NCBI GenBank assembly: GCA_947494305.1
Contig: CANLUL010000004.1
Coordinates: forward strand, 62,001 to 126,000
Direction: 5' to 3'
Length of the DNA stretch: 64,000 nt
DNA from: an uncultured Sphingomonadaceae bacterium
GTDB lineage: Bacteria; Pseudomonadota; Alphaproteobacteria; Sphingomonadales; Sphingomonadaceae
Part shown: positions 4,774 through 42,267 of the stretch, one piece after another
How positions within the stretch are numbered: position 1 is the first letter of the stretch
Layout of the letters: each line of letters opens with the position of its first letter
Notes under the pieces: generated by a model
Told to the model about the DNA's origin: nothing
The model's input: the letters and a program-made list of their open reading frames with translations, nothing else
Database searches by the model: none
Position numbers and translations under genes: made by a program

Positions 4774-7068
4774 TCAAACTGTTTCTGGTTCAGGGGCAAG
4801 TGGCAGCAAGACGGTAAACTGCGCACCACCCTTTATACCTTTCTTATCTGCGATATTCTCAGCTCTAATCGAACCTCCATGCCGTTCAATCACCGTGGCC
4901 ACAAAGTTTAAACCAAGGCCAGCACCCTTCACGCTACCCTTAGAACCACTATCATCGCTTGCAAACCGCTCGAACAGGTTACCAAGCATATCCTCAGATA
5001 TTCCATCACCCTCATCTTTAATGGAAACTGCAACATAAGGTTCCTTATCTAACTCCATGACGCGCATTATAATCTGAATCGTGCTGCTATCAGGACTATA
5101 CTTGATTGCATTGTCGATGAGGTTGACAAAAGAGCGATGGAGGCTGGATGGTTCTCCCAAAATAAATGCACCTTCAGACTCATCCCCAATCGTTGCTTTG
5201 ATATTCCGGGCTTTGGCGAGCGGCCAAAGACTATCGTTAGCCTCGATAACAAGGTCGGATAGCAAAATTTCCTCACCCGAAAACTCGTTCGATTTGATCC
5301 TTGCCAAGCCAACGAAGTTGTCCGCCAATGCCAACGTTCTACGAGCATGCTTTTCTATGCGTTTTGTCGTCTCAGATTGAGTTTGACCATCCAACAATGC
5401 CAATATTGCGGCTTGCGGCGCGCGCATATCGTGCGAAAGAAGCTGTAAGACTTCTTCCCGTTCCTGAGCCGCATTAGCGACCTCAGTAATATCGGCTAAA
5501 TAGTGGATGTAACCGCGCAACTCACCTTCATCAGACACTACAGACGCGCGTCGCATTGCGAACACCTCATCGTTCAAAGATGTGAAATCGACATAATCAA
5601 GCTCTTTGGGTTTGGCTTGCATCGTGAGATACTCTTTGACTTCATCGAGATCTTCAGGCGCTACAAATCGATTTAGCATGTCATCAAGCGCGAAATCCTG
5701 AGAGCCATCTTCAATACCGGTTTGCGCCAATTTGTTCACAAATTTCACTTTCCCATCGATGCCTGTGATGAACATCGGGTCTGGGAGATTGCTCAATGCA
5801 TCGGTAATGAACCGGCGCAGATCACGTACATGAGCAATAGCATGGGTCAATTCCTCAGCCTGTCCGGTGACCACATCTACCGGGCCGGCGGAAGTGACAA
5901 CAACGGGAATATCTACCTTGGCCAGACGGAAATTCTCTAGTTCTTCATCCATGAAGTCACTGGTCGATTGAAGGCGTCGCCAACCCCAAATTGGATAGAC
6001 AAAAACCAATCCAGCAAGAGCCGCTCCGGGAGCAAACCAAGTTTTCATCGAGAGCAACCCAAAGCTGGCGATCAGAACAAGCGATATTAGAGCGATTGAT
6101 GCAAATATCGTTGTCCGCGGGCGCCACCGCCAAAATCCGGTTAGCAATATCCATACTGGCAGCAGGGAAAGAACCAACTGCAGCCATTTTGGCAGTGGGG
6201 AAATGAAATTGTCATCTAATAAGGCATTATATAGATTGGCCATAATTTCCACGCCCGCCAGCGTTCCGCCATCTCTCATAGGGACCGGGTGTTGATCTCC
6301 CAGTCCTTGTGCCGTTGCTCCGATTAAAATAACTTTATCGCGCAGGAAACTGATTGGCATTTCGCCATTGACCAATGCCGCATATGGAATGGTCGTATAA
6401 CTCCCACGTGCGGCATAGGGCAGCAAGAGATTTTGCTTACAATCAGACTGTCGATCAAATGCCAGAGAAGCATTACCATTTGCATGGCGATAAGCCAGTT
6501 CCATCAGATGTGGCCATGTTTTGCCCGAGGTATCTTTGAAGCAAAGCGAGGTGCGGCGAACCATTCCATCCTTATCAAAATTCAGATTGACGTGACCCAG
6601 ACCTTGGGCTGATTCCTTGATTGGAGACACAGGCTCTTTCAAATCAAATTCAGCGCCATTGGCTCCTGGTAAAACGAGATGTATCGGTAGATAGAGATTG
6701 GGATTTTCTGAAATTGACTTTGCTAGACGGAGGTCCGTCTCAGGATCACTGGCCTCACTTAGTAGAATATCGAAAGCAATAGCTTTGGACTCTGAGCTGG
6801 CCATTTTCTCAAATAGCTCCGCATGTCGGTTCCGGGACCACGGCCATTTCCCAAATGCTGACAAGCTATCTTCATCGATCGCAACAATCAAAATATCATC
6901 GGAAGCTTCTGGCCGATCCAAATCAGACAATTGATCATAGATAAGATTATCAAAATCTGCGAGGCCATCCCAATGTATTAGTCCCACAATCAAAAGTGAG
7001 GCGGCAAGCGCTACACCCGCCCACTCAATGCCTAAGCGCCGCCGTAATCGTGATGGGCGGGTTTTCAT
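4774..7068 (-). CDS. CHASE2-PAS sensor histidine kinase
   Basis: This 764-residue membrane sensor has an N-terminal helix (about 15-32), a periplasmic CHASE2 domain (about 35-290, including ILIVAIDEDSLSAFGKWPWSR and AFDILLSE), a cluster of membrane helices (about 295-362), a PAS domain (about 415-525) and a histidine kinase core. His546 in LLSHDMRAP is the phospho-acceptor; the N box NLIDNAIKYSP and the glycine boxes (DEGDGIS, GAGLGLNF) bind ATP. It is the last gene of an operon transcribed leftward after the response regulator and the LysM-FecR protein (53 bases downstream of the latter). The periplasmic FecR protein is a natural candidate for delivering or modulating the CHASE2 signal. The ligand is unknown. 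Confidence 0.92.
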   Translation of the reverse strand: MKTRPSRLRRRLGIEWAGVALAASLLIVGLIHWDGLADFDNLIYDQLSDLDRPEASDDILIVAIDEDSLSAFGKWPWSRNRHAELFEKMASSESKAIAFDILLSEASDPETDLRLAKSISENPNLYLPIHLVLPGANGAEFDLKEPVSPIKESAQGLGHVNLNFDKDGMVRRTSLCFKDTSGKTWPHLMELAYRHANGNASLAFDRQSDCKQNLLLPYAARGSYTTIPYAALVNGEMPISFLRDKVILIGATAQGLGDQHPVPMRDGGTLAGVEIMANLYNALLDDNFISPLPKWLQLVLSLLPVWILLTGFWRWRPRTTIFASIALISLVLIASFGLLSMKTWFAPGAALAGLVFVYPIWGWRRLQSTSDFMDEELENFRLAKVDIPVVVTSAGPVDVVTGQAEELTHAIAHVRDLRRFITDALSNLPDPMFITGIDGKVKFVNKLAQTGIEDGSQDFALDDMLNRFVAPEDLDEVKEYLTMQAKPKELDYVDFTSLNDEVFAMRRASVVSDEGELRGYIHYLADITEVANAAQEREEVLQLLSHDMRAPQAAILALLDGQTQSETTKRIEKHARRTLALADNFVGLARIKSNEFSGEEILLSDLVIEANDSLWPLAKARNIKATIGDESEGAFILGEPSSLHRSFVNLIDNAIKYSPDSSTIQIIMRVMELDKEPYVAVSIKDEGDGISEDMLGNLFERFASDDSGSKGSVKGAGLGLNFVATVIERHGGSIRAENIADKKGIKGGAQFTVLLPLAPEPETV

Positions 7069-18544: not shown

Positions 18545-18808
18545 TCAGAATTTTCACTCCTTTTCTTCCCCCGGGGAAGCACGATCTACAAAGAAGATCC
18601 CGCTCAAAAAAAGAATAGCAGCACATTTCATACCGCGACCTTTTTAATCCCCATGACAATTCATCGTTAGGTGCAAATTGTCTTACTTTTGTTTTAACGC
18701 CGGTTTTTCGGTCAGGCAATCTGTTTATCGATTCAGACTAGATTAAGCTGCATAAGGACCAATATATATGCTAGCCAAGGGCACAGAAAATGGGACTTAC
18801 ATAGCCAA

Positions 18809-19648
18809 ATGAACCATCAATTTACAAAATTATTTTTAGTGCTTTTGATCACGATAAGCGCCCAGAAACCGGCATTTGGGCAGGGCCCAGGGACCATAGA
18901 TCCTCTCCAATATGCTGATCTTGCAGACCTTAGTACCAAAGCTTCGACGATCGTTCATGCGACCGTTAAACGAGCTGTAAAGATTAACGATGAGAGAGCC
19001 TTGTCGGCCCCAATCGGTACTCAAAGATATTATGTTGAAGCGGAAACCAATGCCCTGATTCGGGGTGCTCGTGGCATCCCCGGAACGATTCGCTATGTCA
19101 TAGACTTGCCATTAGATGAGCGCGGTCGTGCTCCAAAGATTAAGAAAAAGTCATTCATCGTATTTGCCCGTCCCAATGGAAGGGAAAACGGACAACTGCA
19201 ATTGGTGGCTAAAGACGCGCAGATTATGTGGACACCTTTGCGCGATTCGCGTGTAAAGGCTATCGTTCGAGAAATTCTGAGCCTGAATGCCGCACCGGGG
19301 ATTGAACGCATTGGCAGTGCCTTTCACGTACCGGGAACAATAATCGGTGAAGGTGAAACCCAGATCTTCATGGAAACCGACAGCAATGTTCCAATTTCCA
19401 TTTCAGTGTTGAGCCGTGATGGACAAAGAAAAACTTGGGCGGTCTCTTTAGGTGAGATTGTTGATGAGGCAGCTAGAGCACCGGCAAAGAACAGCCTACT
19501 TTGGTATCGGCTGGCCTGTTTCCTGCCGGACGACCTTCCTTACGACTCGTTAGATGGACAGTCTCCAGCAAATGCTGATCAGGCACGCCGGGACTACCAA
19601 ATGGTGCGACGGGATCTAGGACCTTGCCCCCGGTCCCGTGCGTTGTGA
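18809..19648 (+). CDS. Exported protein of unknown function
   Basis: I do not recognise this 279-residue protein. It begins with a Sec-type signal (FLVLLITISAQKPAFG, probable cleavage after AFG) and the mature part has many short alternating hydrophobic segments, such as STIVHATVKRAVKIN, TIRYVIDLPLDERGRA and KSFIVFARPNG, suggesting a beta-rich periplasmic fold. Two Cys near the C-terminus (CFLPDDLPYD, CPRSRAL) could form a disulfide. It stands alone, about 90 bases before hom on the same strand. Confidence 0.75.
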   Translation: MNHQFTKLFLVLLITISAQKPAFGQGPGTIDPLQYADLADLSTKASTIVHATVKRAVKINDERALSAPIGTQRYYVEAETNALIRGARGIPGTIRYVIDLPLDERGRAPKIKKKSFIVFARPNGRENGQLQLVAKDAQIMWTPLRDSRVKAIVREILSLNAAPGIERIGSAFHVPGTIIGEGETQIFMETDSNVPISISVLSRDGQRKTWAVSLGEIVDEAARAPAKNSLLWYRLACFLPDDLPYDSLDGQSPANADQARRDYQMVRRDLGPCPRSRAL

Positions 19649-31016: not shown

Positions 31017-31037
31017 ATTGACATTATCTATGTCATA
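31017..31037. promoter_or_regulatory. Operator site A of the 31-42 kb regulon
   Basis: Half-sites ATTGACAT (31017-31024) and ATGTCATA (31030-31037) flank the centre TATCT. TGACAT and ATGTCA are perfectly inverted. The same layout with the same TATyk centre occurs at 33208, 36699 and 42024. It lies about 50 bases upstream of the TTG start at 31078, where a promoter is expected. Confidence 0.7.
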
Positions 31038-31077
31038 TTATAGTCACTTATCAAACTGACCTTATCGGGAGCAAACT

Positions 31078-32148
31078 TTGAAAAAAAAATTCTGGCTCAT
31101 TCTTGTTGCTTTTTTGCTCATCCCTGCTTCCGTGATATTCCTGTTTCAGAAACAAATTGGCGGTATGTTGTTTGAGCGCGCGCTCGAAAGCCGAGTTGGT
31201 GCCAACAATCTTGCAGGGCTGAAAGATGGCTTACATGTAGGGCTTTGCGGAACCGGTTCACCATTGCCCAATCCAGATCGCGCCGGTCCGTGTAATGTTG
31301 TGATTGCCGGAGAGCAAATATTTGTCGTGGATATTGGCGAAGGCGGAGCACGTAATCTCAACCTTATGGCTATACCAGCCCCCGATGTGGACGGCGTCTT
31401 ACTGACTCATTTCCATTCGGATCATATTGATGGTTTGGGACCTTTGATGTTGTTTCATTGGACACAGGGTGCAGCAACCGCACCGCTCCCAGTTTATGGT
31501 CCTGCCGGCGTTGAAGCGATTATCGCAGGCTTTAATGCTGCCTATGCGACCGACAACACCTATCGCACCGCCCATCACGGTGAGAAGATTGCACCTTCTA
31601 CCGGCGGCGGTGCAGAGGCCAGGCCTTTTGAGATGACTGGCAATCAGACAGTGGTCTTGGAAAAAGACGGTCTCAAAATTACGGCCTTCACAGTTGATCA
31701 CGATCCGGTTGCTCCTGCCATTGGGTACCGTTTTGACTATCAGGATCGTTCAGCCTGCATCAGCGGCGATACCGCCAAATCAACCAATCTTGAGCGGGTT
31801 TGCAAGGGCGCTGAGCTGCTCGTTCACGAAGCACTGGCTTCACATATGGTAAAACAGATGACGGCGGCACTGGAGAAGCGGAAGCTAACCAATGCCGCAA
31901 TCATTACCAAGGATATATTGGACTATCATGCAACGCCAACCGAAGCTGCGGAATCCGCGCAAGCAGCGGGTGCAAAACAGCTAGTGCTCAGCCACCTGGT
32001 ACCGCCCCTGCCCAGCAGTTATTTCTATCCTGCCTTTTTGGCCGATGCACCGGACAAGTTTGACGGAGAAATCACTGTTGGCGAAGACGGCATGCTGTTC
32101 AGCCTGCCGGCAAACAGCACCGATATCGAACAAATACAACTGAAGTAA
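31078..32148 (+). CDS. Exported metallo-beta-lactamase-fold hydrolase (RNase Z/AtsA-like)
   Basis: The 356-residue protein starts at a TTG with GGGAG six bases upstream and has an N-terminal hydrophobic segment (FWLILVAFLLIPASVIFLFQ), so it is periplasmic or anchored. The MBL fold shows LTHFHSDHIDGLG (HxHxDH), FTVDHDPVAPAIGYRF, SGDTAKS and a final VLSHLVPP, the order seen in RNase Z-like enzymes. MBL-fold arylsulfatases of the AtsA type belong to this branch, and here a classical sulfatase is nearby, but that activity is inference. A signal anchor makes a tRNA-processing role improbable. Operator site A lies upstream. Confidence 0.85.
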   Translation: MKKKFWLILVAFLLIPASVIFLFQKQIGGMLFERALESRVGANNLAGLKDGLHVGLCGTGSPLPNPDRAGPCNVVIAGEQIFVVDIGEGGARNLNLMAIPAPDVDGVLLTHFHSDHIDGLGPLMLFHWTQGAATAPLPVYGPAGVEAIIAGFNAAYATDNTYRTAHHGEKIAPSTGGGAEARPFEMTGNQTVVLEKDGLKITAFTVDHDPVAPAIGYRFDYQDRSACISGDTAKSTNLERVCKGAELLVHEALASHMVKQMTAALEKRKLTNAAIITKDILDYHATPTEAAESAQAAGAKQLVLSHLVPPLPSSYFYPAFLADAPDKFDGEITVGEDGMLFSLPANSTDIEQIQLK

Positions 32149-32258
32149 GAAACAGGTACGCAAACAGTTCACGGCGCACTGGGTCCACCTTATTCGACGA
32201 TGGTGCGAATTTCAGTGACACAAATTGCGCAATTTTTGGTTGATTAAAGCGCGGTACC

Positions 32259-32873
32259 TCAACTCATATTGATCGCCTTATCGAAGGCCGGCCGATCTGT
32301 GATCCGCTGCACATAAGCTTTTAAGTGCGTCATTTCATCGGGAACACATCCAAGACGGTTGCTCATAAAGGCCGCATGGCCGAGCATGATATCAGCGCCG
32401 GAGAAATCTCCAATCAGATAGTCTTTGCCTTCCAACGCTTCGTTGACCGGTCCCCAAGCTTTGGTCAACAACCGCTTCGCCTGTTCACGCACGGTTTCAT
32501 CCTGACGGTCGGGTGGCAGCAAAAGCGTATGCACCACAATTGTATTCACCGGGGGCATCACCATCCCTTCGCAATAATGAAACCATTGCAAATAATAGGG
32601 GAAATTTGGATCATCGACTGCCGGTTTCAGACCACCGTTTTTGTGGCATTCCAATATATATTCCACTATCGCACCGGACTCATATATCGACACATCGCCG
32701 TCTTCCAACACCGGGATACGGCCCAGCGGATGGCGATCGCGATGTTCATCCGACTTCAGGTCCTTGGGATGAAAAGCCATGGCGTTAAGCTCATAGGGCA
32801 GTTCCAGTTCCTCCAGCAGCCAGCTGATCCGGCTGGCACGGCTATTCGGTGCGAAGTGCAGTTTCAATGTCAT
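32259..32873 (-). CDS. Glutathione S-transferase
   Basis: The 204-residue cytosolic GST has a thioredoxin-like N-terminal domain (LKLHFAPNSRASRISWLLEELELPYEL ... GRIPVLEDGDVSIYESGAIVEYIL, with the glutathione-binding ESGAI turn and cis-Pro VPVL-like IPVL) and an all-helical C-terminal domain containing YLIGDFSGADIMLGHA. It starts five bases after the EF-hand gene (TAA-ACTC-ATG), with GAGGG about 10 bases before, so both genes form an operon under operator site B. Confidence 0.92.
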   Translation of the reverse strand: MTLKLHFAPNSRASRISWLLEELELPYELNAMAFHPKDLKSDEHRDRHPLGRIPVLEDGDVSIYESGAIVEYILECHKNGGLKPAVDDPNFPYYLQWFHYCEGMVMPPVNTIVVHTLLLPPDRQDETVREQAKRLLTKAWGPVNEALEGKDYLIGDFSGADIMLGHAAFMSNRLGCVPDEMTHLKAYVQRITDRPAFDKAINMS

Positions 32874-32877
32874 GAGT

Positions 32878-33180
32878 TTATTTCCCTCTCATGGCTGCTA
32901 GTTCTTTTAGGGTAACATTACCATCCTTGTTGGCATCAACCCTGGCAAAGGCGGTGTCATAGGCATCGAACCGTTTTATCATCGGAGCTTTGCCAAGATC
33001 ATCTGCCGCATCGGCATCTATCAACTTGCGAAACTCCGACTTGGTCAGTTTTTTATCCTTGTTGCCGTCAGCCTGTTTGAAATTGGTCTGGAACGCGGCA
33101 CGATTGGCGTTTTTTTCTAGCGCAAGAGTCGGGGTAGCTATGACCGCTGTTGAGAGTGAAATAAGGGTGAGAATACGCAA
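32878..33180 (-). CDS. Exported EF-hand protein
   Basis: From a TTG at 33180, with AGGAG seven bases upstream, the protein has 100 residues: a signal peptide (LRILTLISLSTAVIATPTLALE) and two EF-hand loops, ADGNKDKKLTKSEF and VDANKDGNVTLKEL, of the DxNxDxxL calcium type. A longer frame from 33255 exists, but it would place operator B inside the gene and an odd basic stretch before the signal. The operator and the strong ribosome site together support the TTG. It is the first gene of a two-gene operon with the GST. Confidence 0.82.
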   Translation of the reverse strand: MRILTLISLSTAVIATPTLALEKNANRAAFQTNFKQADGNKDKKLTKSEFRKLIDADAADDLGKAPMIKRFDAYDTAFARVDANKDGNVTLKELAAMRGK

Positions 33181-33207
33181 GGGAAGTCTCCTATGATACG
33201 ATTGCTT

Positions 33208-33228
33208 TATGGCATTATTGGTGCCATA
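33208..33228. promoter_or_regulatory. Operator site B of the 31-42 kb regulon
   Basis: TATGGCAT (33208-33215) and GTGCCATA (33221-33228) flank the centre TATTG; the TATGGCA/TGCCATA arms are perfectly inverted. The site lies in the divergent intergenic region between the EF-hand/GST operon (leftward) and the GST/EF-hand/membrane-protein operon (rightward), so one regulator dimer could control both. Confidence 0.7.
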
Positions 33229-33281
33229 TAAATTAGCATATTGCAACTTCAACAAATCCCAACGCGGGTGTCAGGAAAAAT

Positions 33282-34274
33282 ATGTACACCATTCACGGGG
33301 CCTTAGGATCCCCTTATTCCATGAAGATGCGGGCGTTGATGCGCTATCGCCGGATTACACATGTTTGGAAGCATGGTGGCCATGCCCAGCAACTAGCGGC
33401 TGAAAAGGCACGCGCGCCGGTCATTCCGGTGATTGAATATCCCGATGGCAGTTTTGATAATGACAGCACGCCGGTTCTTTATGATCTGGAAGAACGCCAC
33501 AAGGGACGCGGCGTTGTGCCACCTGATCCGGCACAAGCCTTTATCGCTCACCTGCTCGAGGATTTCGCTGATGAATGGCTGACCAAGGCAATGTTTGGGT
33601 ATCGCTGGCTCGAAGAAGTAGACCAGATCCAGATGAGCCGTTGGCTGTCCTTTGATGCCATGAAAGGCGGCGGGCTGGAGCAGAGCCAGGGCATGGCCGA
33701 GCATTTTCGTGGACGGCAGGTTGGCCGGATGGCGATGGTCGGTTGCTCGCGCGAAAACTTCCCGCTGATCGAAGCATCGACCCGGGCGGTGCTCGGGGCG
33801 CTCGAGGAGCATGTGGTCAACGAACATTATCTCTTCGGTTCCCGGCCATCGCTCGCGGAACTGGGAATTTATGGACAGCTATCGCAGCTGGGAGTTGATC
33901 CCACGGCGCAAGCCATGATGCGCGCCGACTATCCTTACGCTTTTCGCTGGCTGCTCCATATCGATGACATGTCGGGAATTGAGGATGAATGGGATTCCCC
34001 TGACCAACCGTTCAAACCCGTTGTCGGTAAATTGCTCGAACAGGTGGGTTCGGTCTATGTACCGTTCCTGCTCGCCAATGCCGCTGCAATAGAGGCCGGT
34101 GAAGAGACTTTCCGTATCGAAGTGATGGACAAACCCTATTCGCAGGGAACGTTCAAATATCAGATTAAATGCTTGCGCGAGTTGCGGCATCGCTATGACA
34201 AGTTGGACGCCGAAGCACGAGCGAAAGTTGACCCGATACTCGCAAAAAATGGTTGTTTGGAGTTTTTACAATGA
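33282..34274 (+). CDS. Glutathione S-transferase family protein, long form
   Basis: The 330-residue protein has a GST N-terminal domain (MYTIHGALGSPYSMKMRALMRY ... APVIPVIEYPDGSFDNDSTPVLYDLEERH, with cis-Pro and the DST segment in the place of the glutathione gamma-glutamyl contact) and a C-terminal helical domain (about 95-215). About 100 extra residues follow. Such long GST-like proteins occur in sphingomonads near catabolic clusters. It has no standard start-site alternative; the gene starts 54 bases to the right of operator B. It overlaps the next EF-hand gene by four bases. Confidence 0.85.
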   Translation: MYTIHGALGSPYSMKMRALMRYRRITHVWKHGGHAQQLAAEKARAPVIPVIEYPDGSFDNDSTPVLYDLEERHKGRGVVPPDPAQAFIAHLLEDFADEWLTKAMFGYRWLEEVDQIQMSRWLSFDAMKGGGLEQSQGMAEHFRGRQVGRMAMVGCSRENFPLIEASTRAVLGALEEHVVNEHYLFGSRPSLAELGIYGQLSQLGVDPTAQAMMRADYPYAFRWLLHIDDMSGIEDEWDSPDQPFKPVVGKLLEQVGSVYVPFLLANAAAIEAGEETFRIEVMDKPYSQGTFKYQIKCLRELRHRYDKLDAEARAKVDPILAKNGCLEFLQ

Positions 34275-34546
34275 AGCGTCTCATAAAAGTCTCAGTGTTT
34301 TGCACCGGCGTGCTAGCACTTGGTGGAGCAGCCCAAGCACAAACACTGGCAGAAGTGCACCAGCAGATGAAAAGCAATTTCAAGAAGTCTGATACTGACA
34401 AAAATGGCAAACTGACACAGAAAGAAGCGAAGGATGGCGACATGTGGCGTGTCTCTATGGGCTTCAGTCGGATCGACGCGCAAAAACGCGGTTATGTGAC
34501 ATTGCCTCAGCTCAAACGAATAGCCACCAAACGGTATCAAAAATAA
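34271..34546 (+). CDS. Exported EF-hand protein (second copy)
   Basis: The 91-residue protein starts in an ATGA overlap with the preceding GST stop and has GGAG eight bases upstream. It has a signal peptide (VSVFCTGVLALGGAAQAQ) and one clear EF-hand loop, DTDKNGKLTQKEA, followed by a degenerate second loop (DAQKRGYVTLPQL) that lacks the normal acidic residues. Its resemblance to the EF-hand protein at 32878-33180 suggests duplication. Calcium binding in the periplasm is the likely role; sulfatases of the formylglycine type also use Ca2+, so a link is possible but unproved. Confidence 0.8.
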   Translation: MKRLIKVSVFCTGVLALGGAAQAQTLAEVHQQMKSNFKKSDTDKNGKLTQKEAKDGDMWRVSMGFSRIDAQKRGYVTLPQLKRIATKRYQK

Positions 34547-34558
34547 CGAGAACGAATT

Positions 34559-35020
34559 ATGTTTCAGCGCCTCTTCCCCCCTGCTTTTAACAATGTCTTT
34601 CCGGGGCAGAAGATTGCGCTCTGGCTATTCTATTTACTGACTGCGATAACTTTGTGGCGTAGCCAACATCATATTTTTGCAGCAGATGGCGGTGCTCAAA
34701 GCATTGCGACCATTCCGCTGGACACATATGTGCAAGGCGGCGCTGCAACCGTAGTGAGCGTCTTCGCGCTATGGGGACTGGCACAACTGAGCATGGCCTT
34801 CATAATGCTGCTTGCCTGTATTCGTTACAAGGCGATGATACCCCTGTTGTGGCTTTTCATCCTGTTTGAATATCTTGGGCGGTTGTGCATCGGAATGTAC
34901 AAACCCATTGAAACCATCGAAACGGCGCCGGGACAGACAGGCAATGTGGTACTTCCGATCATCGCTCTGGCTATGCTCATCCTGTCGCTTATTCCGCCAA
35001 GTAACCATTCCGCCAAGTAA
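34559..35020 (+). CDS. Four-helix membrane protein of unknown function
   Basis: The 153-residue protein has about four predicted membrane helices (IALWLFYLLTAITLW, VVSVFALWGLAQLSMAF, IPLLWLFILFEYLGRL, VVLPIIALAMLILSLI). I do not recognise it from named families. It follows the EF-hand gene by 12 bases and ends the rightward operon that starts at 33282. A role as an inner membrane accessory or carrier for the pathway is only suggested by position. Confidence 0.72.
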   Translation: MFQRLFPPAFNNVFPGQKIALWLFYLLTAITLWRSQHHIFAADGGAQSIATIPLDTYVQGGAATVVSVFALWGLAQLSMAFIMLLACIRYKAMIPLLWLFILFEYLGRLCIGMYKPIETIETAPGQTGNVVLPIIALAMLILSLIPPSNHSAK

Positions 35021-35216
35021 CAAAGCGAAGATCTAGTCCAGCTTGAAATATTGTGCTGTCCTACATTCGACCGGGATGCCATCTAACGAGCAACGCTCTT
35101 TGACATCTTGAAAATACACCAATCAAGCGATCCCGCTTTTGCAAACTGTAACCCTGTCCAAAAGGGTTATATACGCCACTTAATGCATGATATTCAGTGA
35201 GTTATCGGGAAAGGCC

Positions 35217-35250
35217 ATAGGGTGACACGGTGTAACCTATGTCACCCTAT
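35217..35250. repeat. 11-bp perfect inverted repeat between convergent operons
   Basis: ATAGGGTGACA (35217-35227) pairs exactly with TGTCACCCTAT (35240-35250) across 12 bases. It begins 7 bases after the DUF1330 gene stop and about 200 bases after the rightward operon. It lacks a T run, so it is either an unusual terminator or a protein-binding site. It is not an ATTGACA-type operator. Confidence 0.5.
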
Positions 35251-35256
35251 ATCCGT

Positions 35257-35673
35257 TCACCCAAGCGAACCCGGCTTTGTCTTGATGTTGAGCTGTCCGG
35301 CCAGTCCGGCTGTCCGGTGCACCGATATCGCCTGATATTCGGGAAACATGATCATCGTTCTCATCGCTTGAAGCGAGGGATATTCGGCCAGCGCCACCAT
35401 ATCCCAGTTTTCCTCTATCTCTCCAAGCATAAGGCCAGTTACTGGTCCGCTATAGTGCGGCTTCGCACCGACGGCGGCAAGACGTTCCACCACGGCCGCT
35501 CCATATAATGAATAGGCTTCCGCACCGCTGAGGTCGGTGGCGCGACCATCGGCATATTCCGCCTTGTCCTTGAATTTCAGCAAATTGACCATGACAAATG
35601 GCCCGTCTTCGGCATCTCCGAAAAATTCCTGCATACGTTCGGGGGACGGATGGACCTGATTGATAACTTCCAT
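35257..35673 (-). CDS. DUF1330 family protein
   Basis: The 138-residue soluble protein shows the DUF1330 pattern: FVMVNLLKFKDKAEY, EAYSLYGAAVVERLAAVGAKPHYSG and VALAEYPSLQAMRTMIMFPEYQAI. The fold is a ferredoxin-like dimer related to monooxygenase/isomerase domains that act on small aromatic or lipid substrates; no function is established. It starts 9 bases after the hydrolase gene, so the two are co-transcribed from operator C. Confidence 0.88.
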   Translation of the reverse strand: MEVINQVHPSPERMQEFFGDAEDGPFVMVNLLKFKDKAEYADGRATDLSGAEAYSLYGAAVVERLAAVGAKPHYSGPVTGLMLGEIEENWDMVALAEYPSLQAMRTMIMFPEYQAISVHRTAGLAGQLNIKTKPGSLG

Positions 35674-35682
35674 CGGTTGCTC

Positions 35683-36675
35683 CTAGGATTTGATGAAGTG
35701 GATAATGGCGTCGGACAATTGTTTCGGACAGTCTTCCTGCAAGAAATGCCCGCCACCTTTAATGGTAACATGGGCGACACCCTTCGCACCCGGAATGCGC
35801 TCCTGGAATTGGGTTTCCCCGCCTTTTGTAACCGGATCACCATCGCTAAAGGCCGTCAGCACAGGTTTCTCAAATTGTTCCAGAACTTCCCAAGCTTTGT
35901 CATTGGCATCACGATCCGACTGGTGATGCGGCAATAGCGGCACACAAGAAGGGAATTTGCGGGCTCCTGCACTATGGTTCTCGTCCGGATGCGGCGCTTC
36001 ATAGCCATCCAAAATTGCCTGATCTTTGATACCGGAAAGAATATTGAACACTTCGCGAACCGAAAAATCCGGACTTTCGGCAGCATATTTAACCCAAAAT
36101 AGAAAGGCACCAGGCGAGCCACTGGCAAACTGCTCCTGAACCATTGCCGCGTCAGGTACAGGAATGGTTGGATAGAGGTTGCCCATCATCTCAGACATTT
36201 CCGGAGACACCATTTTGGACGATGGCAAACCGGTGTTGGCAATCACCAACCGTGCAAATTTGTCGACATTGTCGGCCACAACGCGAAGACCGATCAGGCC
36301 TCCCCAGTCCTGACACATCAACGTTACTTCCGAGATATCCATCGATCGGAACCACGCGTTCATCCAGTCGACATGATTCTGATAGCTATAATCATCGATG
36401 TGATCCGGCTTATCCGATTTGCCAAAGCCAATAAGATCGGGCGCAATGACTCGAAAGCCGGCATTTGTGAGAATTGGAATCATCTTCCGATAGAGATAAG
36501 ACCATGAAGGCTGCCCATGCATGCAAAGGACAATCTCGCCATCACGCGGTCCCTCATCCAGATAATGCAAGCGCAGTGCCGTTCCGTCGGCCGCTGTCAC
36601 TTCGGAATAATGGGGTTCAAAACCATAGCCGGAAAGATTTTCAAATCGGCTATCGGGGGTACGCTGGACTTGCAT
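35683..36675 (-). CDS. Haloalkane dehalogenase-like alpha/beta hydrolase (DhlA-type)
   Basis: The 330-residue protein resembles the HLD-I subfamily: LCMHGQPSWSYLYRKMIPIL, VIAPDLIGFGKSDKP, the nucleophile Asp123 in MCQDWGGLIGL, a Trp immediately after it and a second Trp at about 194 in FLFWVKYAAE, the two halide-stabilising Trp of DhlA. Asp280 (or 278) in FSDGDPVT and His310 in GGGHFLQE complete the triad. Positions match DhlA (Asp124, Trp125, Trp175, Asp260, His289) well, which supports dehalogenation rather than epoxide hydrolysis; the latter cannot be excluded. Operator C is 24 bases upstream. Confidence 0.85.
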   Translation of the reverse strand: MQVQRTPDSRFENLSGYGFEPHYSEVTAADGTALRLHYLDEGPRDGEIVLCMHGQPSWSYLYRKMIPILTNAGFRVIAPDLIGFGKSDKPDHIDDYSYQNHVDWMNAWFRSMDISEVTLMCQDWGGLIGLRVVADNVDKFARLVIANTGLPSSKMVSPEMSEMMGNLYPTIPVPDAAMVQEQFASGSPGAFLFWVKYAAESPDFSVREVFNILSGIKDQAILDGYEAPHPDENHSAGARKFPSCVPLLPHHQSDRDANDKAWEVLEQFEKPVLTAFSDGDPVTKGGETQFQERIPGAKGVAHVTIKGGGHFLQEDCPKQLSDAIIHFIKS

Positions 36676-36698
36676 TGGGAGTGACCTTTCATTGATAT

Positions 36699-36719
36699 AT
36701 TGACACTATTTATGTCAAT
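36699..36719. promoter_or_regulatory. Operator site C of the 31-42 kb regulon
   Basis: ATTGACAC (36699-36706) and ATGTCAAT (36712-36719) flank TATTT. The arms ATTGACA/TGTCAAT are 7-base perfect inverted repeats. It lies 24 bases before the dehalogenase-like start, between it and the upstream FGE gene, indicating a separate promoter within the leftward gene series. Confidence 0.75.
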
Positions 36720-36737
36720 TAATGGAGTCAAGATGGT

Positions 36738-37658
36738 TCAACTATTGGGGGCAGGTTTCTTATTGTCGACCAACCGGAACCCGATATGATTGGTGCCGAG
36801 GCCGCGTTCCTGAAACTGGCGAGCTGCCGGTCGATAACGTGCACAATAGTTGGCGGCACAGAGATAAGAACCGCCCTTGATGACTTTCACACCTTCACTG
36901 GCGTCGGCACGTGATCCATCCGCTGTAGTCCATTCCCAGACATTTCCGAGCATATCATACAGGCCGAAACCATTGGCTTTGTAACAACCAACCGGTGCGC
37001 GGGTTTCAAACCCGTCTTCTCCAAGGTCCTTGGCGGGAAATGCTCCTTGATAGTAATTGGCCTGCGGCTTGCCACTGGCATCTTTGGGTTCTGGCAGTAT
37101 CTCTTCGCCACCCCGTGCCGCATATTCCCATTGTTCTTCACTGGGCAGATCCATACCCGCCCATTGGGCATAGGCCAGCGCATCATCATAAGCGATCTGG
37201 ACGACCGGCACCCGGTCTTTGCCATTGATGCTTTCACCAGGCCCTGATGGATTGCGCCATTGTGCACCGGTTTCCCATCGCCACCAGCGGCGATCCGTTT
37301 CACTAGGCACGTTGAAGACGGCCGAGCCAGGCAACAGCACTTCCGGTGGCGCACCTGCTATTTTGGGAGGGTCGCGTTCCGCAAGGGTTTTGTAACCGGT
37401 TTGCTCCACAAATTGGGCAAATTGGGCATTGGTAACCTCATGATTGCCCATCCAGAAACCATCAACGTGAATCGAGCGCGGTGGCCCCTCTTCACGGTAA
37501 CGCGGGCTCTCTCCCATGACGAAACTACCGCCGGGGACCCAAACCATTTCGGATTTTCCGATACCTTCACAATGGATTGCCTTTTTGTCCGGGGAAGCTT
37601 GCTCCTGTTGCTGTGAACAACCAAGCAGCAGCAAGCTGCATAGGATACCGATGCGCAT
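36738..37658 (-). CDS. Lipoprotein formylglycine-generating enzyme (sulfatase modifying factor)
   Basis: FGE converts the cysteine of CxPSR in sulfatases to formylglycine. From ATG 37658 the protein has 306 residues. It shows the family core MVWVPGGSFVMGE, HPVxxVxxDxFW-like SIHVDGFWMGNHEVTNAQFAQFVEQTGY, LPSEEQWEYAARG, MLGNVWEWTT and GGSYLCAANYCARYRPAAR. The two cysteines in that last motif (267 and 272) are spaced exactly as the catalytic pair of human FGE (Cys336/341). An N-terminal lipobox LLLGC marks it as a lipoprotein, so it should act outside the cytoplasm. A TTG at 37673 is a less likely start. It lies 4 bases after the TetR gene. Confidence 0.9.
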   Translation of the reverse strand: MRIGILCSLLLLGCSQQQEQASPDKKAIHCEGIGKSEMVWVPGGSFVMGESPRYREEGPPRSIHVDGFWMGNHEVTNAQFAQFVEQTGYKTLAERDPPKIAGAPPEVLLPGSAVFNVPSETDRRWWRWETGAQWRNPSGPGESINGKDRVPVVQIAYDDALAYAQWAGMDLPSEEQWEYAARGGEEILPEPKDASGKPQANYYQGAFPAKDLGEDGFETRAPVGCYKANGFGLYDMLGNVWEWTTADGSRADASEGVKVIKGGSYLCAANYCARYRPAARQFQERGLGTNHIGFRLVDNKKPAPNS

Positions 37659-37662
37659 GAAT

Positions 37663-38286
37663 TCAATCTTCAATCTGATCGAGAATGTCCCGCAATAACT
37701 GTCTCATCACCTCGATGGTTTTTTTGTTGGACAGTTCTTCGTCATGTCGAAACAGGCGCCAGGTGTCGAAGCTAGTAGAGAGTAGAATCGCGCGCGCGCG
37801 GTTACTATCATTCTTGACATGCTCCGGCAAAAGCCTGTCCCGCGCCTTGCGTTCAGTCTCCAGTAGCCGCCGGTAGTTCTCCATCAGGGTGGGAGAGCGG
37901 AATCGCTGAATGCTGGTAGATAGTCTGAATGGAGCCGTTTTTTCCCACACCCCTGCGCGACGTTCGATCAGTTCAAGAAGCTGTTCGCGCCAGTCATTGG
38001 AGCTGAAAGGTCGATTGAGTTCCGGGCTATACGCGTCCCACAAGATGGTGTTCATCTCGCTGTAGATTGATTCCTTATCGTCGAAATGCCGGAAAACCGA
38101 GCGAAGTCCAACGCCTGCCTTTTCCGCCACCTTCGCGGCGCTGGGATTAATGTCACCTTCCACAATCAGGTCCATCATCGCTTTAATGATCCTGCTACGA
38201 CTGTTCCGGCTGCGTTCACGGCGGCCATCAGGGTGCGGGCCATCACCATCTATTGCTTTACTTAGTAACGCGCTCTGTTTTGTCAT
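37663..38286 (-). CDS. TetR-family regulator
   Basis: From ATG 38286 (GGACGAG upstream) the protein has 207 residues. The N-terminal helix-turn-helix is recognisable in RSRIIKAMMDLIVEGDINPSAAKVAEKAGVGLRSVFRHFDDKESIYSEM, with the recognition helix LRSVFRHFDD. The remainder is the helical ligand-binding domain. The longer frame to 38376 overlaps the upstream gene's end and is not needed. It is embedded in the sulfatase/FGE operon and is the obvious candidate for the regulator that binds the ATTGACAY-type operators in this block; this is inference. The ligand is unknown. Confidence 0.88.
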   Translation of the reverse strand: MTKQSALLSKAIDGDGPHPDGRRERSRNSRSRIIKAMMDLIVEGDINPSAAKVAEKAGVGLRSVFRHFDDKESIYSEMNTILWDAYSPELNRPFSSNDWREQLLELIERRAGVWEKTAPFRLSTSIQRFRSPTLMENYRRLLETERKARDRLLPEHVKNDSNRARAILLSTSFDTWRLFRHDEELSNKKTIEVMRQLLRDILDQIED

Positions 38287-38305
38287 AACTCGTCCAGAAT
38301 ATGCT

Positions 38306-38323
38306 ATGCCAATTCTATGGCAT
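38306..38323. promoter_or_regulatory. Inverted repeat before the TetR gene
   Basis: ATGCCA (38306-38311) pairs with TGGCAT (38318-38323) around six bases, 20 bases upstream of the TetR start and just after the DsbA-like gene ends. The right half TATGGCAT also matches the left half of operator B and is followed at 38329 by ATATCGA, a weak match to the second half, so a degenerate regulon operator may overlap it. Confidence 0.45.
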
Positions 38324-38326
38324 TGA

Positions 38327-39682
38327 TCATATCGAAACGCCAGCTTTGGCTGCACGTCTCCGGATTTCCGCAGCAATCAACCACAGCCTATCCTGCCCCC
38401 AGACCGCCAAGTCCGGTTCACCGTCCGGTCCGGACAGACGGTAACTCGGCACGCCCCATAGGCCAAGGCCATCGACCATTTCGTCCTGATGCTTTTCGAC
38501 CATGGCTTTCCAGCCATCACTGCCCAGATGCTTTTTGGCCGTTACCCAATCAAGGCCCGAAGCCTCGACCGCTTGTTTCATCCCCTTTTTGGTGTGTAGC
38601 CCAATGCCTTTTGCAAACGCGCAACTGAGCAAAGAGGACATTAGCGCCTCATCCTTGCCCTGTTCCATCGCCCAAGGGAGCAGGGAATAGGCTTGTCGGG
38701 TCGGGTCGCCAATCGGCGTTATCATCGGTCCGAAAGGAACGCCCAGAAACTCCGCTTCTCGCTTGGTGTCAAAGATGATGTACATGCCCTTTGCACGTGT
38801 CGCTGGAACACCACGCATGATCATCGGTAGCACAGGTTTATGGTTGAACTGAATGCCGCATTCATCTTTCATAGAGATGGTGTGGTCGTAGATAATCGAT
38901 GTATAGGGCGAATTGAGCGAGGGATAGAAATCCAGCGTCAACGCACTGGCATCGACCCCGCTGACGTCAATATCAGGGCGAGGACAGATAAGGGGCAATT
39001 CCGTAGTCTTGCAGGTTCCAAGATCCCGTAACCGTTGTTCGAGATGGAACAGGCGATCCACTCCCCAATACCACTCACCTGCATAGAAAAAGGTTGCACC
39101 GGAATAATGACCCAATTCAGAAAGGCGTGCGCTTCCTTCTTCAAGTAGGGCGTCAATATTGTCACCGTCCTTAGGCTCAATCTCTCCATTCCACAAAGCT
39201 GTGCTGATCTCTGATATTGAACGCAGAAAACTCTCAGCGGATAGTTTCGAAAGCGCCAATGCGGCAGCATTCTGGCATTCGATATCAGGCCTGATACCTG
39301 CATCTTCGGGGAATTTCAGTCCATAATAGGGCGCGATTAACGCCGCATCGCGCCTAGCCCATTTGGCCAGCTTTTCCAGTTCCGGCTGGTTCTTCCCTCC
39401 AGCAGCCCGGATCAGATGCGGTTTGAGCACCACATCATAACGTTCTGCAAAAATCGCCAGCACTTGAGCCGTCAAATGCGAATAGGGATCATCCAACTGG
39501 TGGAAATATTCCACCACATGCGGATCTCCACTTCGCTGCCGTTTCTTTTCCGCTTTTTGACGACGCTGGTTTACCTTTCGAAGATCGGTGACCCTGTCAA
39601 ACTGCCGTCGCATCAATTGACGCAACCAGCCGGGAGGGTCGACTATCAGCTTTGGGTTCGGATTTTTGTCAGGCTCAAGCAT
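38327..39682 (-). CDS. Double DsbA/HCCA-isomerase-like (thioredoxin-fold) protein
   Basis: The 451-residue protein contains two copies of a thioredoxin-fold DsbA/2-hydroxychromene-2-carboxylate isomerase-like module: one near residues 56-230 (VVEYFHQLDDPYSHLTAQVLAIFAERYDV) and one near 248-445 (LTLDFYPSLNSPYTSIIYDHTI ... WGVPSYRLSG). Both lack a CxxC redox motif and have an S/PYS or PYT motif in that place, which in HCCA isomerase and kappa GSTs holds the glutathione sulfur. So a glutathione-dependent isomerase or transferase is more likely than an oxidoreductase. It overlaps the previous gene by 8 bases. Confidence 0.82.
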   Translation of the reverse strand: MLEPDKNPNPKLIVDPPGWLRQLMRRQFDRVTDLRKVNQRRQKAEKKRQRSGDPHVVEYFHQLDDPYSHLTAQVLAIFAERYDVVLKPHLIRAAGGKNQPELEKLAKWARRDAALIAPYYGLKFPEDAGIRPDIECQNAAALALSKLSAESFLRSISEISTALWNGEIEPKDGDNIDALLEEGSARLSELGHYSGATFFYAGEWYWGVDRLFHLEQRLRDLGTCKTTELPLICPRPDIDVSGVDASALTLDFYPSLNSPYTSIIYDHTISMKDECGIQFNHKPVLPMIMRGVPATRAKGMYIIFDTKREAEFLGVPFGPMITPIGDPTRQAYSLLPWAMEQGKDEALMSSLLSCAFAKGIGLHTKKGMKQAVEASGLDWVTAKKHLGSDGWKAMVEKHQDEMVDGLGLWGVPSYRLSGPDGEPDLAVWGQDRLWLIAAEIRRRAAKAGVSI

Positions 39683-40307
39683 TGCGGTCCTTGCCTGTTT
39701 TTTGTTTCCAGTCGATCAACTTCCACCCGATAAAGCCAAGTATCAGAAATAGCATCCCCAACATAAATCGCACCTGCACAAAGGTGATAGTGGGCCGCGT
39801 GATGAAGACTTCGGTGTGGGCGAGGGATGCAGATTTGAATTGGTTGCCCTCAACCATCCGTTCGTCGCGGATCATGTCGAGCAAGTCGCGCAACGAACGA
39901 TAACGAACAACCGCAACGCGGTCGATCTGGTTACCAAATTTGCCCAGCATCAATCCGGCACGCTCGCTCACAAAAACCGGGTGACCGCCGCGTTCAAGAA
40001 GTAAAGGAACGACAATTTCGCCATATTGCGTTTCGGCCTGCTTTGCATTTGGCCCTTGTGCACGGGTTTCCAAATTAACAGCATAAAACTCTTTGCCATC
40101 ATCTTTGGGAAGCATGGCCGTTAGATTTCGACTCATGCTGCCTTCCGGGGTATCTTCAAGCTTGAACCCATGCAGTTGCTCGATCTGCGCAAGCATATTT
40201 TCACCGTCGGCCTGCGAAATCGGATCACCATTGCCGCCATACCAGACCCAGAAACTGTCATAAAGGATCGCCAGCAAAGCGGCCCAGATTATCTTGGCTT
40301 TGGACAT
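39675..40307 (-). CDS. Membrane-anchored protein of unknown function
   Basis: From ATG 40307 (AGGGA eight bases upstream) the protein has 210 residues: an N-terminal hydrophobic helix (IIWAALLAILYDSFWVWY), a periplasmic region of about 150 residues and a C-terminal helix (FMLGMLFLILGFIGWKLIDW) before a basic tail. I do not recognise the family. It starts 10 bases after the sulfatase stop and overlaps the next gene by 8 bases, so it is tightly coupled to the sulfatase. Confidence 0.78.
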   Translation of the reverse strand: MSKAKIIWAALLAILYDSFWVWYGGNGDPISQADGENMLAQIEQLHGFKLEDTPEGSMSRNLTAMLPKDDGKEFYAVNLETRAQGPNAKQAETQYGEIVVPLLLERGGHPVFVSERAGLMLGKFGNQIDRVAVVRYRSLRDLLDMIRDERMVEGNQFKSASLAHTEVFITRPTITFVQVRFMLGMLFLILGFIGWKLIDWKQKTGKDRNA

Positions 40308-40317
40308 TTGTATTTCC

Positions 40318-41997
40318 CTAGTTTGGCCAGAATATATATTCATCGCCCGCCACAATCTTGTCAGCACGGGTCTTGTCTATCGCGATCGGACTTTCCAGGC
40401 TGTAGGCATAGAGCGGGGGTTTGCGATCCTTATGGTGATTGGCAAGCAGCTGTTTCAGCTCCGCCAGCTTGGCAGGATTGACCTCCGCTATATTTTTCTG
40501 CTCGGTTGGATCGTCGGCCAGATTGAACAACCAGCTTTTCTTTTGCCTACCGTTGACTTGCAGCTTCCAGTCTCCCGCTCGCACGACTTGATAATAGCCA
40601 CTTTGCCAGAAAATCGCGTCATCGAGTCTACTGATAGAACCGGTTCCCGTAGCAGCGGGGAGCATATTCTTTCCGTCAATTTCGACCCCTTCAGGCAATG
40701 GTGCGCCACCGGCGGCGACCAAAGTCGGCATGACATCGATATGCGCCACAGGTGTTTCTACCAGTGTGCCCGGTTTGATTTTGGCTGGCCATTTGACAAA
40801 CATTGGCGCCCGAATACCACCCTCAAACAGGGTGATTTTCCAACCGCGATAAGGAGCATTTACCTCGGGCAAGCCAATATAACCCGCGCCGCCGTTATCA
40901 CTGGAAAAGACAATGATGGTGTTGTCGGCCAGGCCTTCCTCTTCCAGTTTCTTCATAATCCGGCCAACGCTGCGATCAAGCGCGCGCACCATGGCGGCAT
41001 AAACTCGCAACCGGTGCGGTTTGATATCGCCGACCGCTTCATAGTCCGCCCGCGTGGCCTGTAAGGGCGTGTGCACACCCCAATGGGCCAGATAAAGGAA
41101 GAAGGGACGGTTCCTGTTCGCCCCGATCACTTTCAGCGATTCATCGGTCCACCAATCAGTCAGATAGCCTCCCGGCTTGAACCGGGTCGCATCATCAAAC
41201 TCCTCGTTGTGGAACGATGCGGCATATTGCATCCCTGCCCACAGAAATTTGTCAATCGGGTCAAAGTCCAGCTGGGCCTTGACGCCATCCGGATCATCCT
41301 CCTCCAGAAACAGTCCGCTGGCCATCAGCAGGCTTTCATCAAACCCCTGCGCCAGTGGATTGGTTTCTGCATTACGACCCAAATGCCATTTGCCGATATG
41401 GGCGGTATGATATCCCTGTTCCTTGAGCAATTCCGCAATGGTAATTTCGCTGCCTGGCAAACCCATGTCTTCATAAGCTACGGCATTATCCGCTGATGGC
41501 ATATATTCAGCTGGCGGCAGGCCAGAGTCTAACTCATTGCTAATTGCGCTGACCATGCGCCCCATTCCTGGTGGCGTCGGAGTAAACTCAAATCCGGTGC
41601 GGGTTGGATAACGTCCAGTCATTAGCATCCCACGCGATGGAGCGCAGGTTGCATTGCCGGCATAAGCCTGACTGAATATCGCCCCATCGGCAGCCAGCTT
41701 GTCAATATGGGGTGTTGGCACACGGCCACCGGCGACACCACCGCCGAAAGTCGAGATGTCATTGATGCCCAGATCGTCGGCGAGGATAAAGATAATGTTG
41801 GGCGGGCGCTCTGCGGGCGGGATCGCGATCTCCTTGGGCCCCTGCGCCCATTGAACAGTACGATTGTCCGCAACATCGGGATGAGTGAAATTTTTGATAT
41901 AAGCGAGCATCAAAGAGGTACGATTTTGATAACCCGCCAAGCCAAACCCAATAAGAACGAACAATATCGTCAGCGTGATCTTTTGCCAGCGTTTCAC
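40318..41997 (-). CDS. Formylglycine-dependent sulfatase (arylsulfatase family)
   Basis: Sulfatases hydrolyse sulfate esters. From a GTG at 41997 (GGAG six bases upstream) the protein has 559 residues, with an N-terminal signal/anchor helix (ITLTILFVLIGFGLAGY). The catalytic domain shows NIIFILADDLGINDIS (metal-binding Asp pair), the maturation motif CAPSR (Cys118, CxPSR type, processed by FGE), GYHTAHIGKWHLG with the conserved Lys/His and FSSDNGGAG. The frame also reads from an ATG at 42009, which would abut a 46-bp inverted repeat and leave no ribosome site. The nearby lipoprotein FGE is the likely activator. Natural substrate unknown. Confidence 0.93.
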   Translation of the reverse strand: MKRWQKITLTILFVLIGFGLAGYQNRTSLMLAYIKNFTHPDVADNRTVQWAQGPKEIAIPPAERPPNIIFILADDLGINDISTFGGGVAGGRVPTPHIDKLAADGAIFSQAYAGNATCAPSRGMLMTGRYPTRTGFEFTPTPPGMGRMVSAISNELDSGLPPAEYMPSADNAVAYEDMGLPGSEITIAELLKEQGYHTAHIGKWHLGRNAETNPLAQGFDESLLMASGLFLEEDDPDGVKAQLDFDPIDKFLWAGMQYAASFHNEEFDDATRFKPGGYLTDWWTDESLKVIGANRNRPFFLYLAHWGVHTPLQATRADYEAVGDIKPHRLRVYAAMVRALDRSVGRIMKKLEEEGLADNTIIVFSSDNGGAGYIGLPEVNAPYRGWKITLFEGGIRAPMFVKWPAKIKPGTLVETPVAHIDVMPTLVAAGGAPLPEGVEIDGKNMLPAATGTGSISRLDDAIFWQSGYYQVVRAGDWKLQVNGRQKKSWLFNLADDPTEQKNIAEVNPAKLAELKQLLANHHKDRKPPLYAYSLESPIAIDKTRADKIVAGDEYIFWPN

Positions 41998-42010
41998 GTG
42001 TATCTCCATC

Positions 42011-42056
42011 CAACCACCATTATATTGACACTATTGGTGCAATATAATGGTGGTTG
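42011..42056. promoter_or_regulatory. Long inverted repeat containing operator site E of the 31-42 kb regulon
   Basis: CAACCACCATTATATTG (42011-42027) and its exact reverse complement CAATATAATGGTGGTTG (42040-42056) enclose 12 bases. Nested in the centre is the regulon operator: ATTGACAC (42024-42031), TATTG (42032-42036), GTGCAATA (42037-42044). The element lies 13 bases before the sulfatase GTG start, in the untranslated leader, and may also fold as an RNA hairpin that hides the ribosome site region. Confidence 0.75.
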
Positions 42057-42267
42057 GGTCAAGAATTTAAGCTCGTATGTTCGGTTACATGATTTAATCG
42101 GCTCAGCAGTTGCGAGCGACTTAGTTCGACTAAATCGTCCTAACAATTTTTACTGAGGTCTTAGAGTCAGAGTTTACCGTCCACCGCCGACGGTTAACTT
42201 CTTGAAATACCTGGGTTAAAAACCTTCGCGTCCATCCAAGCCTATGACAGAATATCGCGCAAGGCGG

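Follow-up and report, generated by a model that had tools for sequence, protein, structure and literature searches.

We analysed a 64,000-nucleotide stretch of contig CANLUL010000004.1 from an uncultured Sphingomonadaceae bacterium (the window), in which a block of genes between 31 and 42 kb carries four similar near-palindromes, the predicted operators of a TetR-family regulator encoded in the same block. An original prediction had placed a shared 21-bp site at 31017, 33208, 36699 and 42024, and all four were found at those coordinates. Operator 1 (31017..31037) stands upstream of a gene for a metallo-β-lactamase (MBL)-fold protein, with 42 nt between its core and the start codon, and scores 25.8 on the matrix described below. 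Operator 2 (33208..33228; score 29.4) occupies the divergent gap between the EF1 and GST2 genes, its core lying 29 and 55 nt from the respective starts. Operator 3 (36699..36719; score 29.4) lies in a 62-bp gap between the genes for a formylglycine-generating enzyme (FGE) and a dehalogenase, 25 nt from the dehalogenase start, and operator 4 (42024..42044; score 26.6) lies upstream of the sulfatase operon, 16 nt from the ATG. The sites, recorded without a strand, follow the consensus WWWTGRCAY-N5-RTGYCAWWW. The 21-bp pattern as originally written is exact at 33208, 36699 and 42024; at 31017 the right half, ATGTCATA, differs in its outer bases.

The sites had been described as lying just upstream of gene starts or in a divergent gap, and this holds: six intergenic gaps longer than 50 bp occur in the block, of which the four that bear promoters (before MBL, between EF1 and GST2, before the dehalogenase and before the sulfatase) contain one site each, and the two convergent gaps (32149-32258 and 35021-35256) contain none. 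A pattern-free repeat search recovered all four sites, grouping 31011, 36693 and 42018 in the first family (D1) and 33210, 31019 and 42026 in D6. No other position in the window reaches a matrix score of 12.

Five predicted transcription units are arranged around these sites, and their gene content had been read correctly, as judged by Pfam and NCBIfam. The first is the MBL-fold hydrolase (31078..32148, + strand; Pfam Lactamase_B_2, 68.7 bits), which passes no NCBIfam cut-off and has an export-type N-terminus by eye. On the minus strand follow the small EF-hand protein EF1 (32878..33180), whose TTG start at 33180 was chosen by eye after AGGAGA (the listed open reading frame begins at 33255), and the glutathione S-transferase (GST) GST1 (32259..32873; Pfam GST_N and GST_C above cut-off). 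Diverging from them on the plus strand are GST2, a 330-amino-acid GST-like protein (33282..34274; GST_N_3, 34.2 bits, cut-off 22), the small EF-hand protein EF2 (34253..34546; EF-hand_6) and DUFx (34559..35020), a membrane-like protein without a Pfam family that is kept in the cluster of genus relatives. The remaining genes are all on the minus strand. The haloalkane dehalogenase (35683..36675; NCBIfam PRK00870, 429.9 bits, cut-off 265) is followed by a DUF1330 protein (35257..35673) whose 22.4 bits fall slightly below the Pfam cut-off of 23. The last unit comprises a type I sulfatase (40318..42009; Pfam 183 bits), the membrane protein DUF1330m (39675..40367), the tandem DsbA-fold protein DsbA2 (38327..39682), the regulator gene tetR (37663..38286), which had indeed been placed inside this operon, and FGE (36738..37673; Pfam 235 bits), whose N-terminus looks lipoprotein-like by eye. 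DUF1330m belongs to no Pfam family and is related to the DUF1330 protein (BLASTP E 4e-8; hhalign 97.8%).

The double DsbA of the original prediction proved to be a real duplication, with the two halves aligning at an hhalign probability of 87% (E 3.7e-6; 15 sequences). Pfam DSBA matches residues 249-440, and the CxxC of DsbA oxidoreductases is absent, the corresponding residues being DDPYS in one half and NSPYT in the other. DsbA2 has only its fold in common with the DsbA disulfide oxidoreductase; presumably it resembles kappa-class GSTs. Among plasmid records, the tandem DsbA protein had no relative, and sulfatases appeared only at less than 60% identity.

Conservation of the operator and its tie to TetR

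The core, TGRCAYTATYKRTGYMA, has four matches without mismatch in the 3.35-Mb genome, all in the block. Because this core was built from the four sites themselves, a matrix applied to held-out loci provides the better test. A symmetric 25-bp matrix was made from 24 sites, namely the four in the window and 20 from six genus relatives. The 20 were drawn from 28 sites found around TetR relatives at no more than two mismatches; the other eight were kept out of the matrix, four of them from the five sites of L054, which are near copies of those in L053, and four from the more distant L058-L060. Homology to the block's TetR was the sole criterion for retrieving test loci (the best 80 of 158 relatives). 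Five loci from training genomes were set aside, leaving 75 held-out loci, and a matrix score of at least 15 was taken as a site. Sites were present in 71 of these 75 loci, amounting to 144 sites (113 distinct) in 1,374,342 bases, compared with 0.3 sites per 1,443,122 bases after first-order resampling in 500-bp blocks (all 80 loci, three rounds). No site occurred in 186,713 bases of control DNA, which was composed of the window outside the block, flanks from the same genome, 19 loci around weak TetR matches and 16 loci around chance matches to the pattern.

The regulator is a protein of 207 amino acids from its conserved start (the listed open reading frame begins at 38376), and it is the sole regulator encoded in the block. 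It carries a TetR_N DNA-binding domain (25.2 bits, cut-off 24), and its predicted model has the all-helical fold of the family (predicted local distance difference test score 87.3, predicted template modelling score 0.76). In 50 of the 80 loci, tetR is preceded by a site at a distance of no more than about 330 nt; in the window, tetR belongs to the operon behind operator 4. Furthermore, a survey of 298 family genomes found the strict motif in 43 and the TetR in 60 (profile A1, E up to 1e-15), with both in 37, the motif only in six, the TetR only in 23 and neither in 232. Fisher's test gave p 3e-25, or 3e-23 after the training genomes G000, G007 and G020 were dropped, although the loci are related by descent and these values therefore overstate their independence. 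The pattern read backwards matched in two of the 298 genomes. Collectively, the conservation in held-out loci, the sites before tetR and the co-occurrence over 298 genomes strongly support the predicted scheme of one operator, one TetR and one regulon, and this TetR very probably binds the operators and regulates its own gene; the original interpretation as a whole is only partly supported.

Sites at a distance from tetR mostly precede the same enzyme families. Among the matches listed, with training genomes not included, 47 of 61 strict-motif sites lie within 15 kb of the TetR. Four of the 14 far sites are on fragments of the draft genomes G151 and G212. Eleven of the 14 were retrieved, and nine of these precede regulon gene families: a dehalogenase in L150, L153, L156 and L158 (the L150 site scoring only 13.4), a GST in L151 and, weakly, in L152, MBL in L154 and L157 (in the latter followed by GST2 and a second sulfatase), and DUF1330 in L163. 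The other two precede a gene resembling a FAD enzyme by eye (L159) and no labelled gene (L155).

The nearest named relative of the window TetR, among the best 80 of 158, is that of Sphingorhabdus sp. Alg239-R122 (82%). The genus relative L051 (G007:C30) has two TetR paralogues (70% and 52%) at 526-1143 and 18741-19337, and its 19-kb contig holds parts of two such gene sets. In L161 and L166, tandem sites of the same motif stand at about 5010-5086 next to more distant TetR genes, both genomes being without a close TetR. At operator 4 itself, an inverted repeat with 18-bp perfect arms (42012-42059) encloses the operator just before the sulfatase start, and the corresponding RNA has a folding energy of -40.5 kcal/mol (z -6.8). 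Since the longest perfect arm at 163 sites of relatives is 12 bp, this extension looks peculiar to the window genome.

Regulon content in relatives

The regulon is wider than the original prediction could see. It occurs in many Sphingomonadales and in some Hyphomonadaceae, is scattered across the genome in certain cases, and in some relatives takes in TonB receptors and additional enzymes. Labels of genes in relatives come from tblastn with a small set of references; where a site occupies a divergent gap, both genes were counted, and TonB counts include true receptors only. A labelled regulon gene lies directly downstream of 139 of the 144 held-out sites, and five sites have none. The first downstream gene was most often tetR (50 sites), followed by the dehalogenase (25), DUF1330m (23), a second sulfatase (22) and GST2 (17), and more rarely DUF1330a (7), MBL (6), GST380 (6), the sulfatase (5), a TonB receptor (4), alcohol dehydrogenase (4), DUF2855 (1) and DsbA2 (1). 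The four TonB sites precede two genes, which are 76% (L064) and 28% (L080) identical to a Pfam-checked receptor. TonB receptors are also present in L069 and L051, the latter together with an AMP-binding ligase. Across 56 full-length loci, a sulfatase occurs in 43, a dehalogenase in 21, FGE in 34 (33 of them with a sulfatase) and GST2 in 23. These counts suggest that sulfate removal forms the more widespread core, to which dehalogenation is often added.

The catalytic residues of these enzymes are largely retained. The window dehalogenase matches solved dehalogenases down to E 1.5e-97 (5esr), and the NCBIfam haloalkane dehalogenase cut-off is passed by all four enzymes checked (window, L143, L099 and L057). 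Its D-W-W-D-H pentad, whose residues have established catalytic roles in haloalkane dehalogenases, is intact, as it is in 35 of 42 relatives; the other seven deviate at the second W only. The enzyme is predicted to be a subfamily-I haloalkane dehalogenase with intact catalytic residues. The window sulfatase has the site CAPSR, with CxPSR in 49 of 51 relatives, and the second sulfatase of relatives has CxPxR in 44 of 46. Against a solved FGE, the window FGE gives E 5.5e-52 with the Cys pair aligned (GGSYLCAANYC and GGSYMCHRSYC), and the active-site Cys pair is present in 53 of 57 relatives.

In four loci from Hyphomonadaceae, Maricaulis and Phycosocius (L091, L094, L110 and L122), the only operator lies in the gap separating tetR from a divergent gene of DUF1330m type, and no sulfatase or dehalogenase is labelled in the stretch. 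This arrangement is perhaps the simplest form of the system. In addition, GH92 glycosidase genes lie near tetR in L122 (6686-8968) and L084 (16960-19728), the two that were checked; their group occurs in 16 loci.

Proposed control and substrate

Judged from the DNA, the four sites are quite likely operators through which the TetR encoded at 37663-38286 represses five units, its own gene included, until an inducer releases it. Without inducer, TetR dimers would occupy the operators, 16-55 nt ahead of the start codons, and block MBL; EF1-GST1; GST2-EF2-DUFx; dehalogenase-DUF1330; and sulfatase-DUF1330m-DsbA2-tetR-FGE. As tetR is part of the sulfatase unit, TetR would repress itself. The substrate or a breakdown product would then bind TetR, causing its release and switching on the catabolic set. 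The exported sulfatase, activated by its own FGE, would act first, followed by the dehalogenase, the glutathione-dependent enzymes and the hydrolases. Sulfate removal would take place outside the cytoplasm (export being assigned by eye) and dehalogenation and glutathione chemistry inside, with uptake through TonB receptors in some relatives. The substrate class most likely consists of organic sulfates from algae or plankton, in many cases halogenated as well.

Several observations, besides the shared descent of the loci, weigh against this picture. The sites may not be unique in the genome, where a pattern search at no more than one mismatch gave six others besides the four; one of them, C1:445152, reaches 22.3 on 21 matrix columns and so exceeds the weakest window site (21.6). 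Four of the six were retrieved, C1:445152 included, and all four lie inside long open frames, as do five further near-matches; this test is only indicative, as an antisense frame crosses the site at 42024 too. A scan for consensus sigma-70 promoters found 13 where 10.9 were expected and none at an operator, so we infer the overlap of operator and promoter. Four of the 75 held-out loci (L074, L077, L095 and L112) have no site at the threshold, the L052 (G022) and L061 (G008) regions have none at up to two mismatches, and the strict motif is missing from 23 of the 60 TetR-bearing genomes. Finally, sulfatase and dehalogenase occur together in only 18 of the 56 full-length loci, and eight have none of sulfatase, dehalogenase, FGE and GST2, so that the pathway may not be a single fixed one.

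The alternative that fares best is a regulon directed at sulfated glycans or sterol sulfates, with a different substrate for the dehalogenase. The excess of sulfatases over dehalogenases, 43 to 21, and the GH92 genes near tetR in L084 and L122 fit this, but operators stand directly before the dehalogenase at 25 of the 144 held-out sites and before a GH92 gene at none, and four of the 11 retrieved far sites precede dehalogenases; we hold it to be possible though somewhat unlikely. The TetR could also bind the operators as an activator, or both activate and repress, given that the sequence does not show the direction of control and that the operators show no consensus promoter. An operator just before start codons and before the regulator's own gene is, however, the typical layout of a TetR repressor, and the distances of 16-55 nt and the sites before tetR itself make activation improbable. 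Still less probable is that the palindromes are bound by another regulator, with TetR merely carried along or co-regulated. If tetR were itself just one of the targets, this too would account for its co-occurrence with the motif and for the site in front of it, and the motif occurs without this TetR in six genomes, but the block has no second regulator gene; moreover, two of those six (G227 and G224) have tandem sites next to a gene that matches the TetR profile more distantly (31.9 and 48.0 bits), and in the remaining four no site reaches a matrix score of 13. That AT-rich promoter DNA produced the four sites by chance, as TTGACA within the half-site and the AT-rich flanks might suggest, can practically be dismissed: the held-out loci contain 144 sites, compared with 0.3 per 1.44 Mb in shuffles that were locally matched, and 43 genomes have the motif against two with the reversed pattern.

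A bolder version of the repressor scheme, which we put forward only as a long shot, is a pathway specific to chlorosulfolipids or comparable halogenated organic sulfates from algae, all under one self-repressing TetR. Chlorosulfolipids are proposed because they combine a sulfate ester and an alkyl chloride in one molecule. They would be taken up through TonB receptors, desulfated by the FGE-activated sulfatase, hydrolytically dechlorinated by the subfamily-I enzyme, processed by glutathione chemistry and passed on as acyl-CoA. According to excerpts of one paper, they are known from freshwater chrysophytes and now also from coastal plankton blooms (PMC13413282); neither "sulfatase" nor "dehalogenase" occurs in its text. 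Excerpts of another describe macroalgal Sphingomonadales that carry genes for degrading halogenated compounds (PMC10919026). The passages from these two papers make no link to such a regulon, and titles and abstract openings in the literature yielded nothing on bacteria that degrade chlorosulfolipids. If true, the pathway would give orphan dehalogenases a natural role. The operator also predicts more pathway genes, including ones far from the cluster, and a reporter placed behind it would reveal the inducer directly.

A local, autoregulated TetR regulon for catabolism is of a known kind, examples being the TetR-family regulators FadR of Bacillus and KstR of actinobacteria. Like these, the window system has a one-component regulator with a palindromic operator repeated over several promoters, probable autoregulation and catabolic targets; it differs from them in operator, target set and TetR subfamily. 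This particular regulon appears to be undescribed in the literature searched, in that titles and abstract openings gave no description of a TetR regulon with sulfatase, dehalogenase and DUF1330. Both FadR and KstR are among the weak fold matches of the TetR model, of which four of 805 reach E ≤0.001, too weak to name a ligand class from structure; by sequence, the best match to a solved structure has E 6e-8, mainly over the DNA-binding part. Among dehalogenases, the window enzyme resembles those which we take to be of the DhlA/DpcA type in its match to 5esr and its intact pentad, and departs from them in about 33 cap-region residues (153-186) that remain unaligned and in being co-regulated with sulfatases. 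Similarly, the CxPxR sulfatases and the FGE Cys pair are as in known pairs of type I sulfatase and FGE, whereas the lipoprotein-like N-terminus of the FGE and the co-regulation with dehalogenase and GST genes set the window pair apart.

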